From positions 1 to 57,083 of the forward strand of contig NZ_CALUXO010000051.1 of NCBI RefSeq assembly GCF_944324745.1: a stretch of DNA of 57,083 bases. Direction: 5' to 3'. Under the pieces are notes generated by a model, which worked only from the letters and a program-made list of their open reading frames with translations, ran no database searches and was not told the DNA's origin. The DNA comes from an uncultured Thomasclavelia sp. GTDB taxonomy: Bacteria; Bacillota_I; Bacilli_A; Erysipelotrichales; Coprobacillaceae. Below are positions 28,670 through 41,271 of this stretch, piece by piece (position 1 is the stretch's first letter; each line of letters opens with the position of its first letter). The position numbers were made by a program, and so were the translations under genes.

Positions 28670-29671
28670 CTATAAGCTACCAACTACATTCATCATTGGT
28701 ATAATAATTGAAATATAAACAATAATTACAAACAAAGCTGTAAAACAATATACAAATACAACCACATATTTCATAATTCTTTTCAACTGAAAATTTAAAG
28801 TTTCCAGTGATAGCTCAAGATAATTATTTAATGATTTATCTTGGCGAGTATCATGAATCAATAACTTAAAAAAAGAAACAAAAAGAGGTTCAAAGTAGAC
28901 AAACTCACTAATAATCATTACTAAATCCTGTCCTTTTAAAACTTGCAAATAGATTTCATATACCAGCATTTTAATATCACTATCGTCTATTTTTTGATAT
29001 AAGGTAGTAATAATGTTTGAAAAATCGTAGCCATTGATCAATAATTCATTATAGTATAAGGCAAATTTAATCGAGTAGTATTTTTGAATTATAATTTTGA
29101 TCAAAAAACAATAACTTACCAGCAAATCTAAAAGTTTAAAATATTGTCTTTTTATCGCATAAATAGTAATTATTACTGCAGTACTAAAAAGTAAAATTAA
29201 TAATATAATTATGATCGGAATAATTTTAAAACTCCAAAAAATTAATCTAGTTACCAAACCTAAACTGATATCAAATTCGATAAATAATTGATTTACCGAA
29301 GGTAATAATCCATAAACAATAAACAATGAAAAACCAACCAAAAAAGCAATCAACACGATTGGATAAGTTAATTGTTTTTTTATCTTATTAGCAGTAATAT
29401 TAATTTTACTAACGATACTTAAACTTTTAATAATCGCATCTGCAAGATTATCTTCAAGTCGAAAAAATTTAAAATATTCAATAAATGTACGATTAAACCC
29501 CGATTGAATAATGGCTTCATCTAAAGACATCCCTTGCTTAAGAAATTGATGAATTAAATCGATTTTAGCATTTTTATCGATTACCTGGCAGAGTGATAAA
29601 ATATCTTCGATTAAGTAGCCTTGTTTTAAAAAAGAAGCAATGTTTTCTAACAAGCGATAATCATCATTCAT
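28670..29671 (-). CDS. comGB: ComGB polytopic membrane protein (GspF family)
   Basis: This 333-aa inner-membrane platform protein of the competence pseudopilus has two GspF-type cytoplasmic helical domains (about residues 1-95 and 190-300). They are separated by hydrophobic segments near 100-125 and 150-180, with a last one near 305-330. 'FLKQGMSLDEAIIQSGFN' and 'TYPIVLIAFLVGFSLFIVYG' are recognisable. The ATG at 29671 is favoured because AGGT lies 8 nt upstream; an in-frame TTG at 29686 is weaker. It overlaps the comGA stop by 8 nt. Confidence 0.88.
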   Translation of the reverse strand: MNDDYRLLENIASFLKQGYLIEDILSLCQVIDKNAKIDLIHQFLKQGMSLDEAIIQSGFNRTFIEYFKFFRLEDNLADAIIKSLSIVSKINITANKIKKQLTYPIVLIAFLVGFSLFIVYGLLPSVNQLFIEFDISLGLVTRLIFWSFKIIPIIIILLILLFSTAVIITIYAIKRQYFKLLDLLVSYCFLIKIIIQKYYSIKFALYYNELLINGYDFSNIITTLYQKIDDSDIKMLVYEIYLQVLKGQDLVMIISEFVYFEPLFVSFFKLLIHDTRQDKSLNNYLELSLETLNFQLKRIMKYVVVFVYCFTALFVIIVYISIIIPMMNVVGSL

Positions 29672-30650
29672 TAATAGTACCTGCAATTTGTATATAATCG
29701 ATATAATCGTGCTCTAATAAATAGAGGGCATTTTGTTTAAATGTTCGATATTCCATTGCTTCATTATTGAAATATTTTAAAATATTTTTACGATTTAAAA
29801 ATTCTGGGAGAATTAATGGTGTGTGGTTTTTTTTATCATAGAGCATCTTTTGAGCTAATACACCAACTAAGACATCTTCTAAATCAATCTTGATTACACC
29901 TAGATTAAGTAGTCTTCTAATCGTAATCAAACAATCACTAGAATGAATCGTCGTTAAGACCAGATGACCAGTCAACGCACAAGTAATAGCTAGTTTAGCT
30001 GTTTTTTTATCACGAATTTCCCCAATCATGATAACATCCGGATCATGTCTTAAAATTTGTTTTAAAGAATTTTGGTAAGTGATTCCTAGTTTCTCATTGA
30101 TTTGTAGCTGAAGACAGTAATCCTTATTGATTTCAATCGGGTCTTCTAAAGTCACGATATTTTTTTTATAACGTTGATTGATCGTATCTAACAAGGTATA
30201 TAGAGTTGTCGATTTACCAGAACCAGTTGCTCCACTAACAATAAATAATCCCGATTTTAAATTAGTAATATGATTTAAAAAATTTAATGTATCTGAAAAT
30301 ACGGTTAGTTTTTCTAAAGTAATCTGGTGATGATTATTTAGAATTCTAATTACTAAACTGTCTAATTCTTTGCCTGGTAAACTAGAAATACGTAAATAAT
30401 AGATTTTATTCGTGACCGCATAGTCTAAATGCCCGGTTTGTGGCTTTAATCGAAAATTGATATCAATATTAGAAATAAAACGAATGTAATTAAAAAACTT
30501 CGAACCAGTTTGATATTCTAGAGAATTATAAAAAATTAAATCACCGCGCTGACGAAAGGAGATAATACACTTATCTTTTAACAATAAATGAATATCGCTA
30601 GCATGAGATTCAATTGCATGATATAACATTTTTTCAAATAGTTCATCCAT
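29664..30650 (-). CDS. comGA: ComGA secretion/pilus assembly ATPase (GspE family)
   Basis: This 328-aa hexameric ATPase powers the competence pseudopilus. Motifs include an N-terminal 'HASDIHLLLKDKCIISFRQR', Walker A 'VSGATGSGKSTTLYTLLDTI', the Asp box 'VTLEDPIEI', Walker B 'RHDPDVIMIGEIRDKKTAKL' and the His box 'GHLVLTTIHSSD'. It lacks the long N-terminal extension of GspE, as ComGA does. AGGAGG precedes the ATG. It heads the seven-gene comG operon, and no ComK-box-like pair was evident in the 70 bases upstream. Confidence 0.92.
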   Translation of the reverse strand: MDELFEKMLYHAIESHASDIHLLLKDKCIISFRQRGDLIFYNSLEYQTGSKFFNYIRFISNIDINFRLKPQTGHLDYAVTNKIYYLRISSLPGKELDSLVIRILNNHHQITLEKLTVFSDTLNFLNHITNLKSGLFIVSGATGSGKSTTLYTLLDTINQRYKKNIVTLEDPIEINKDYCLQLQINEKLGITYQNSLKQILRHDPDVIMIGEIRDKKTAKLAITCALTGHLVLTTIHSSDCLITIRRLLNLGVIKIDLEDVLVGVLAQKMLYDKKNHTPLILPEFLNRKNILKYFNNEAMEYRTFKQNALYLLEHDYIDYIQIAGTINE

Positions 30651-39947: not shown

Positions 39948-39968
39948 ATAGGAACATAAAGTTCCTAT
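39948..39968 (-). terminator. Terminator after DUF1540 gene
   Basis: A perfect 8-bp stem, ATAGGAAC (39948-39955) with GTTCCTAT (39961-39968), has a 5-base loop and is followed on the minus strand by a T-run. The stop codon TAG (39967-39965) is inside the stem. Confidence 0.88.
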
Positions 39969-40114
39969 CGACATTTAAACGTCTTACAAGCTGTTTCTTG
40001 CACTTCTTTTGCTTCATTACAATGACAATTGCAAACGACAATCTCTTTAGCTGTACAATTGCAATTTTCATTATAAACGCAACTGTCAACCTGGCAATTT
40101 ACGCCTCTAGCCAT
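39965..40114 (-). CDS. Cysteine-rich DUF1540 protein
   Basis: This 49-aa protein contains nine Cys spaced as in DUF1540: 'GVNCQVDSCVYNENCNCTAK', then 'VVCNCHCNEAKE', then 'ETACKTFKCR'. The family is common in spore-forming Firmicutes and has no proven role; the pattern fits a small metal-binding knuckle. The ATG at 40114 follows GGGAGGTGAT; an in-frame upstream start at 40162 has no site. A TATAAT (minus strand, about 40152-40157) lies just after the cse60 terminator. It is a separate one-gene unit beside the sporulation-type cse60 gene. Confidence 0.85.
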   Translation of the reverse strand: MARGVNCQVDSCVYNENCNCTAKEIVVCNCHCNEAKEVQETACKTFKCR

Positions 40115-40160: not shown

Positions 40161-40191
40161 AAAAAAAGGATAAATGAAAATCATTTATCCT
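40161..40191 (-). terminator. Terminator after cse60-like gene
   Basis: An 11-bp perfect stem, AGGATAAATGA (40167-40177) with TCATTTATCCT (40181-40191), has an AAA loop and seven T on the minus strand. The stop codon (40183-40181) is at the stem edge. Confidence 0.88.
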
Positions 40192-40354
40192 CATAAACGA
40201 TCAGGCAACTAAAACTATATTCTAATTCACTAGAAAATGTCATAGCTACTTGATAATGCATTGATAAGATTATTGGCTGTTTATCATCAATGAAGTCATT
40301 AATCTCATCTTCTAAATCTAATTCATGATCTTTTTCGATTATTTTAACTTTCAT
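40181..40354 (-). CDS. Cse60-like small sporulation protein
   Basis: This 57-aa protein starts at 40354 on the minus strand: 'MKVKIIEKDHELDLEDEIND', then 'FIDDKQPIILSMHYQVAM', ending 'YSFSCLIVYEDK'. This is the pattern of the Cse60 family (basic first strand, acidic helix, two strands, aromatic end). Bacillus Cse60 was found as a sigma-E-controlled gene of unknown function. No Shine-Dalgarno sequence precedes the ATG, and the start codon is inside the 3' arm of a perfect 17-bp palindrome (40349-40385). A TATAAT placed 6 nt before the ATG would give a leaderless transcript. A strong terminator follows. Confidence 0.75.
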   Translation of the reverse strand: MKVKIIEKDHELDLEDEINDFIDDKQPIILSMHYQVAMTFSSELEYSFSCLIVYEDK

Positions 40355-40385
40355 ATCATGATTATAAAATAATCATGATATGAAA
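40349..40385. promoter_or_regulatory. Perfect 17-bp inverted repeat over cse60-like start codon
   Basis: Positions 40349-40365 and 40369-40385 are exact complements around AAA. On the minus strand the 3' arm contains the ATG (40354-40352). There is no T-run after it on the minus strand, so it is not a standard terminator for galM. A TATAAT (40366-40361) sits at the centre, with a partial sigma-E-like ACATATT at 40388-40382. Confidence 0.75.
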
Positions 40386-40392
40386 TATGTCA

Positions 40393-41271
40393 TTATTGGT
40401 TAATTTCTACTTTAAATGTACATTCAAATTCTTCAGCTGGATTTAAAGCAACAATACCTTCTTTATCTTTAAATTCTCCATCAAAATCAACATAATCACT
40501 ATGTCCTACCCAAGGTTCAATGGCAATTAAACCTCCCACATGTTTAGCAGCCCATAAACCAACATGATTAAAATTATTCATATGGAATACAATTGATTTA
40601 TTATGATTTAATGATCTTAAAGCAATTGATTCTGATTTAAAATCTTTAAAGACAATTGCATCATTATCAAATAATCGTTGACGAACAAAAAATCTTCGTT
40701 CATTATCAAAAAATGGTAAAGTAACTCGTGACATTCCCTTCTTTTCAACATCAATTACTTTTTGCGATAATGTTTCATTTTCACTAAATTCTAGATAATA
40801 ATCATTGCTTGACTCATTTTCCATAAACGGACAAGCAAAAGCAGGATGACCACCAATTTGGAAATAAATTGTTTTATCATCGATATTAGTAACTTTACAG
40901 TTGCAGACTAAAATATTTTTTTCTAGACGATAAGTAACTTCAAGTTTAAATAAATATGGATATTGTTTAGCAATTTCTTCGTTTGAAGTTAAAGTAAAAA
41001 CTACTTCTTCATCACTGATTTGATTAGTATCATATTCATTATGACGTGAAAAACCATGTTGCGTCATAGAATATACTTTACCTTCAATGCGACATTCATT
41101 ATTTTTTAAAGCACCAACAATTGGAAACAAGATTGGTGCACTGTTAGCCCATTGAATTGGGTCACGGCGCCACATATAATTAATATGATCCTCTTGACCA
41201 ATTATTTTAATAATTTCGGCTCCTTTACTAGCCAATGTAACTTCTAGATAATCATTTTTTAAAACAACCAT
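40393..41271 (-). CDS. Aldose 1-epimerase family protein
   Basis: This 292-aa protein belongs to the galactose mutarotase-like superfamily, LacX/YphB-like branch. 'YMWRRDPIQWANSAPILFPI' (with catalytic-region Arg), 'TQHGFSRHNEYD' (His), 'FQIGGHPAFACPF' (His) and 'LIAIEPWVGHSDYVDF' (Glu) match the family. It interconverts sugar anomers, possibly of an amino sugar or sugar phosphate, given its neighbour nagA one base upstream. The exact substrate is unknown. The gene ends 8 bp before the large palindrome over the cse60-like start. Confidence 0.9.
   Translation of the reverse strand: MVVLKNDYLEVTLASKGAEIIKIIGQEDHINYMWRRDPIQWANSAPILFPIVGALKNNECRIEGKVYSMTQHGFSRHNEYDTNQISDEEVVFTLTSNEEIAKQYPYLFKLEVTYRLEKNILVCNCKVTNIDDKTIYFQIGGHPAFACPFMENESSNDYYLEFSENETLSQKVIDVEKKGMSRVTLPFFDNERRFFVRQRLFDNDAIVFKDFKSESIALRSLNHNKSIVFHMNNFNHVGLWAAKHVGGLIAIEPWVGHSDYVDFDGEFKDKEGIVALNPAEEFECTFKVEINQ

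Follow-up and report, generated by a model that had tools for sequence, protein, structure and literature searches.

The cse60 locus of a Thomasclavelia species: evidence for a probable leaderless sporulation mRNA behind a Spo0A-type promoter

The locus and the start codon of cse60

The window, by which we mean the whole stretch of 57,083 nucleotides that was analysed, carries on its minus strand the gene order nagA, galM, cse60 and a DUF1540 gene (Table 1). The Pfam profile Spore_Cse60 (PF10957) aligns to residues 1–55 of the cse60 protein (E = 1.5e-9) with 38.3 bits, against a gathering score of 20.7, which places the protein in this family. Only 38 bases separate the galM stop (40393) from the cse60 ATG (40354), and a terminator scan of this gap found none. 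The only terminator-like site of the region overlaps the end of cse60, which also disposes of the palindrome described below as an intrinsic terminator of galM. If cse60 uses its own promoter and this terminator, it would be transcribed as a unit of about 190 nt.

Table 1. Positions of the features discussed, in window coordinates
Feature	Position	Strand	Remarks
galM-like aldose 1-epimerase gene	40393–41271	-	PF01263; upstream of cse60, co-directional
TGACA, -35-like element and likely Spo0A-box half	40388–40392	-	-38 to -34; 21 nt from the -10 box; directly after the galM stop
Promoter spacer of cse60, 21 nt	40367–40387	-	Sequence variable, length constant in relatives
Perfect 17-bp inverted repeat, 3-nt loop	40349–40385		Arms 40349–40365 and 40369–40385; 100% complementary
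-10 box TATAAT	40361–40366	-	-12 to -7 from the A of the cse60 ATG; TA...T there in 25/25
Predicted transcription start	40354	-	A of the cse60 start codon; 6-nt discriminator after the -10 box
cse60 (57 aa, Spore_Cse60, PF10957)	40181–40354	-	ATG 40354–40352; Pfam and conserved N-terminus
Intrinsic terminator overlapping the cse60 end	40166–40192	-	Terminator scan
DUF1540 gene, start at MARGVN...	39965–40114	-	PF07561; next gene after cse60; strong Shine–Dalgarno sequence

The genome of the window (G000) is Thomasclavelia-like and 2.76 Mb in size. The main comparison covers 25 galM-linked Coprobacillaceae loci, namely that of the window (L001) and 24 relatives, from nine genera; the named loci near that of the window are those of Erysipelatoclostridium sp. 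An173, T. cocleata and T. saccharogumia. Since these sequences are related, the counts over the 25 loci are not independent and the nine genera are the more honest number. In the compared galM-linked loci, galM always lies directly upstream of cse60 and is co-directional with it.

The start codon of cse60 is ATG in all 25 loci, and the N-terminus MK[VI]KIIE that follows from it is preserved in nearly all close relatives. The in-frame codons on its 5' side (GAT, CAT, AAT, TAT, TTT, TTA) run to a TGA without any other start, so that the cse60 start is fixed and no alternative start codon with a ribosome site lies upstream of it in frame. The preliminary description of this DNA had noted that the ATG lacks a ribosome site, and this is confirmed in all 25 loci, in which no Shine–Dalgarno (SD) sequence was found for cse60: the longest match to GAAAGGAGGTGATC at positions -20 to -5 is 4 nt (TGAT, AAAG or, once, GGTG). 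The DUF1540 gene, whose start was picked by its SD, has an SD of 8–10 nt in 25 of the 25 loci; it thus serves as an internal control, indicating that SD use is normal at this locus.

A fixed -10 box and a Spo0A-type layout

The hexamer TATAAT ends exactly 6 nt before the cse60 ATG and, at this position, a sigma-A -10 box would make the A of the start codon the first transcribed base, as the preliminary description had proposed. Comparison with the relatives, together with the missing SD, supports this proposal. TA...T occupies -12 to -7 in every one of the 25 aligned loci and in all nine genera, the best rival offset reaching 7/25 and the maximum at any offset in 20,000 shuffles being 10/25. 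The base before the ATG is a pyrimidine throughout (25/25), and the other bases between the -10 box and the ATG drift. A fixed -10 box, a pyrimidine at -1 and drift elsewhere form the pattern expected if selection favours transcripts that begin with the A of the ATG. Alignment of the whole galM–cse60 gap, which had been put forward as a check, gives the same picture: the -10 offset and the gap length are constant and the spacer sequence drifts. These comparisons strongly support a leaderless cse60 mRNA that would start at the start codon, with the proviso that the start may lie 1–2 nt off the A, adding or removing bases.

Leaderless mRNAs of Firmicutes lack an SD and carry TANNNT about 12 nt upstream of the start codon; in low-GC genomes the box takes the form TAtAAT with TG ahead, and such mRNAs have been described mainly from Lactobacillales and Mycoplasma (Zheng et al., 2011; PMC3160421). 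The cse60 gene shares the box position, the TAtAAT/TG form and the missing SD with them, but it is a single conserved sporulation gene in a setting where leaderless genes are rare. They are few in C. difficile (15 genes; PMC7438776) and amount to 2–3% in solventogenic clostridia (PMC9045289). They are not common in the lineage of the window either: in 1.2 Mb of the related genome G005, an SD precedes one of the first starts in 923 of 1058 open reading frames, and widespread leaderless use was rejected there because SD-less ATGs show no peak of TATAAT at a distance of 6 nt upstream. Two more SD-less ATGs with TATAAT 6 nt upstream were seen in G005 (L108:3211–4375, minus strand, and L134:14892–16152, plus strand) and are candidate leaderless genes.

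Further upstream, ACA is found at -36 to -34 in 24–25 of the 25 loci, within the consensus AATGACA. The 21-nt spacer between this element and the -10 box exceeds the length usual in sigma-A promoters. In B. subtilis, the Spo0A~P-activated promoters of spoIIE and spoIIG have spacings of 21 and 22 bp, respectively, and we therefore inspected spoIIE and spoIIGA in the same genomes. The spoIIE gene is preceded by TGACAAA-N21-TATAAT in 23 of 25 cases and by the N20 form in the other two (counted from the end of TGACA), and spoIIGA by TGACA-N21-TA..AT in 16 of 16. The window's cse60 thus has the TGACA element, the 21 nt and the TATAAT of spoIIE and spoIIGA in the very same genomes, although these two genes have a leader with an SD whereas cse60 has none, and although its own link to Spo0A is a predicted one. 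The 0A box has the core TGTCGAA/TTCGACA, and according to PMC3485338 boxes close to the consensus are usual at spoIIE and spoIIA; spoIIE and spoIIG are sigma-A-dependent Spo0A targets (PMC12090719). The match at cse60 is partial: compared with TTCGACA, the core read in reverse complement, its consensus AATGACA keeps the GACA half. With a TTGACA-like element 21 nt before a sigma-A -10 box, the cse60 promoter matches the layout of the Spo0A-activated sigma-A promoters of Bacillus, where this distance is 21–22 nt, and by analogy cse60 would be under Spo0A control. A 21-nt-spaced promoter of this type, of which the preliminary description makes no mention, would also explain the conserved length of the galM–cse60 gap.

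The motif is rare. In nine congeneric genomes of about 3 Mb, YGACAAA-N19-TATAAT has only 1–5 matches per genome, and these take in spoIIE and/or cse60 in all nine. In three congeners (L198, L205 and L214) a small membrane-protein gene (MDFRKNAGIV...) lies just after CGACAAA-N19-TATAAT and is a candidate for a further Spo0A target. At 70 outgroup cse60 loci the spacing N in GACA-N-TA...T peaks at 21 (34/70), no other spacing between 10 and 31 exceeding 12 loci; here the -10 box mostly lies 15–17 nt before the ATG, with an SD between. Two of the eight cse60 loci of family f2 (L283 and L284) have the leaderless arrangement of the window. An automated scan of outgroup spoIIE upstream regions, in which many matches began mid-gene and flanks were limited, gave only one case at spacing 14 and one at 22, a scarcity that carries little information given these limits. 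The simplest history would begin with an old promoter of the Spo0A type and a very short leader carrying an SD; Coprobacillaceae and some lineages of f2 would then have lost the leader. Finally, spo0A and cse60 travel together: across 43 genomes of the family, each scores above the cut-off in 30, both in 29, neither in 12 and each alone in one, bearing in mind that absence of a gene from an incomplete genome is weak evidence.

The palindrome and galM read-through

The preliminary description had also reported an exact 17-bp palindrome with the ATG in one arm and TATAAT at its centre, and had suggested that galM read-through would be locked in the resulting hairpin. The palindrome is indeed exact, all 17 nt of the arms being complementary, and TATAAT is present in it, albeit slightly off the exact centre. 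In the minus-strand sense, the 5' arm (40385–40369) lies within the promoter spacer and the 3' arm (40365–40349) takes in the ATG, the discriminator and the greater part of the -10 box. No other perfect hairpin in the window is as long, and 60 dinucleotide shuffles gave at most 13 bp. The sequence of the palindrome is unique to the genome of the window and not conserved among relatives; since the arm has no other copy at one mismatch or fewer in the whole genome, it is not a dispersed repeat, and a mobile element was rejected as its origin on the same ground. Rfam matches were all below threshold, so that no known RNA family was retained. Elsewhere in this genome, outside the window, TTTCATATAATGATTAG repeats lie about 69–70 bases apart (G000:C85:18845–20041 and 29206–29710, G000:C58:5939–6024) and are probably CRISPR arrays.

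The galM read-through segment folds with a predicted energy of -22.8 kcal/mol, and the predicted probability that the cse60 AUG is unpaired is about 0.001 in read-through RNA, compared with about 0.98 in RNA starting at the AUG. With its AUG hidden and no SD, the read-through RNA should be silent. These values support the proposed lock, as do hairpins of different sequence that recur at cse60 in relatives more often than expected by chance (L002, L011, L012, L014, L016, L039 and L040). Shuffling of the spacer alone gives a mean z of -1.32 for the 24 relatives, the window being left out; the value for 300 intergenic controls is -0.19. A spacer pairs better with the cse60 start of its own locus than a swapped one does (p = 5e-5 without L001), and cognate-spacer folding with one species per genus gives a median p of 0.014. 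On the other hand, the number of pairs crossing the cse60 start site is not raised and a wider hairpin shuffle (-62 to -24) is not significant in Coprobacillaceae (family f1; p = 0.23), so that a read-through lock is likely in this family but not settled.

Strong hairpins occur in families f20 and f21, in which all 15 cse60 loci have one (mean z of -5.7 and -4.8); nearly all pair a C-rich stretch of the promoter spacer with the cse60 SD, and the -10 box is often in or near the loop. The SD forms the 3' arm and the spacer holds the 5' arm in L314, L316, L230, L232, L239, L249, L302 and others, and several of these hairpins are followed by a T-run and look like terminators with a nested promoter. 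At spoIIE, the promoter spacers of L079, L083, L085, L091, L105 and L077 finish with CCTC, the complement of the GAGG that serves as SD there, and the cognate-spacer test for spoIIE gives p = 0.0014. The f20/f21 arrangement resembles that of the lysozyme gene e of phage T4, in which a long read-through RNA hides the start region and translation is confined to the late-promoter RNA, which begins inside the structure and is devoid of the 5' arm (PMC3014915). In the window, too, the long RNA is predicted to hide the start and the own-promoter RNA would not contain the 5' arm. Unlike gene e, cse60 is a cellular sporulation gene, in which the AUG rather than an SD would be hidden and the short RNA would be leaderless.

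We may wonder at this stage whether the leaderless Spo0A-type promoter is real and the palindrome a neutral accident, template switching having perfected a near-palindrome in an unconstrained spacer with no lock ensuing. This is a reading that we take seriously while holding it to be rather doubtful. The palindrome sequence is found in one genome, its 5' arm lies wholly in the unconstrained spacer, several relatives (L006, L007, L037 and L041) have no hairpin at cse60, and the wider shuffle is consistent with chance. An accident would, however, less readily account for the different hairpins that recur in relatives, for own spacers outpairing swapped ones when the window is left out, or for the spacer–SD hairpins of f20 and f21.

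Origin of the translated RNA and significance

The remaining alternatives concern the promoter itself. Sigma-E -10 elements read CATA..., and B. subtilis cse60, which we take to be a sigma-E gene, was reportedly assigned by Henriques in 1997 to a mother-cell-specific sporulation regulon. If a sporulation sigma factor such as sigma-E rather than sigma-A used the cse60 promoter, the mRNA would still be leaderless. A title cited in PMC8863042 does put the B. subtilis homologue Cse60 (YteV), a protein given as of unknown function, in the mother-cell-specific regulon, but at the present loci the -10 box resembles TATAAT, many relatives have an extended TG, and a C precedes the box in only 2/25; the 21-nt layout, moreover, is the one seen at spoIIE and spoIIGA, which makes sigma-E use improbable. 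The two proteins belong to the same family (PF10957); given the mother-cell-specific report for B. subtilis, their control would differ, the window's cse60 having a putative Spo0A-type promoter.

It is more improbable still that cse60 has no promoter of its own and is translated mainly from galM read-through, by termination–reinitiation across the 38-nt gap. The constant, co-directional position of galM and the lack of a terminator would suit such coupling; yet selection holds the -10 box at one offset and ACA 21 nt earlier as the rest drifts, the read-through RNA is predicted to bury its AUG and there is no SD to aid reinitiation. An operator for a dimeric repressor covering the -10 box, suggested by the perfect dyad symmetry over the promoter, is the least credible of all, because the sequence occurs in no relative and in no other near-perfect genomic copy, and the relatives' hairpins vary in sequence and position.

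We therefore favour expression of cse60 from its own promoter of the spoIIE/spoIIG type. By analogy with Bacillus, Spo0A~P would activate this sigma-A promoter early in sporulation. RNA polymerase would use TGACA, the 21-nt spacer and TATAAT and begin at the A of the ATG; the resulting mRNA would be short and leaderless, and ribosomes would read its 5'-terminal AUG without an SD. The galM read-through RNA would include the spacer, fold into the 17-bp hairpin and hide the AUG, which would leave RNA started at the Spo0A-type promoter as the only translated form. Sequence comparison shows the promoter anatomy with its exact placement and conservation, the missing SD, the layout held in common with spoIIE and spoIIGA and the recurrent hairpins, whereas the precise 5' end, Spo0A binding and control, leaderless translation, the lock and the loss of the leader are inferred. 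We consider this scheme as a whole to be quite probable; its least doubtful link is the leaderless start and its most doubtful one the lock in the species of the window. A broader version is more tentative, and we would not lean on it: among gut bacteria of this class, cse60 and in part spoIIE might carry a translation device that is gated by the promoter. A Spo0A promoter would lie inside a hairpin, with promoter-spacer DNA as the 5' arm and the SD or AUG as the 3' arm. Translatable RNA would come only from the nested promoter, and the Coprobacillaceae form would be reduced to a leaderless mRNA.

The cse60 gene is a clear case, conserved and open to test, of a probable leaderless sporulation mRNA in a Firmicutes lineage with few leaderless genes. 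The 21-nt-spaced motif provides a means to find Spo0A targets in gut Erysipelotrichales, in which there is little genetics. A possible reason for the leaderlessness is that it may shield a developmental gene from the read-through of its metabolic neighbour.
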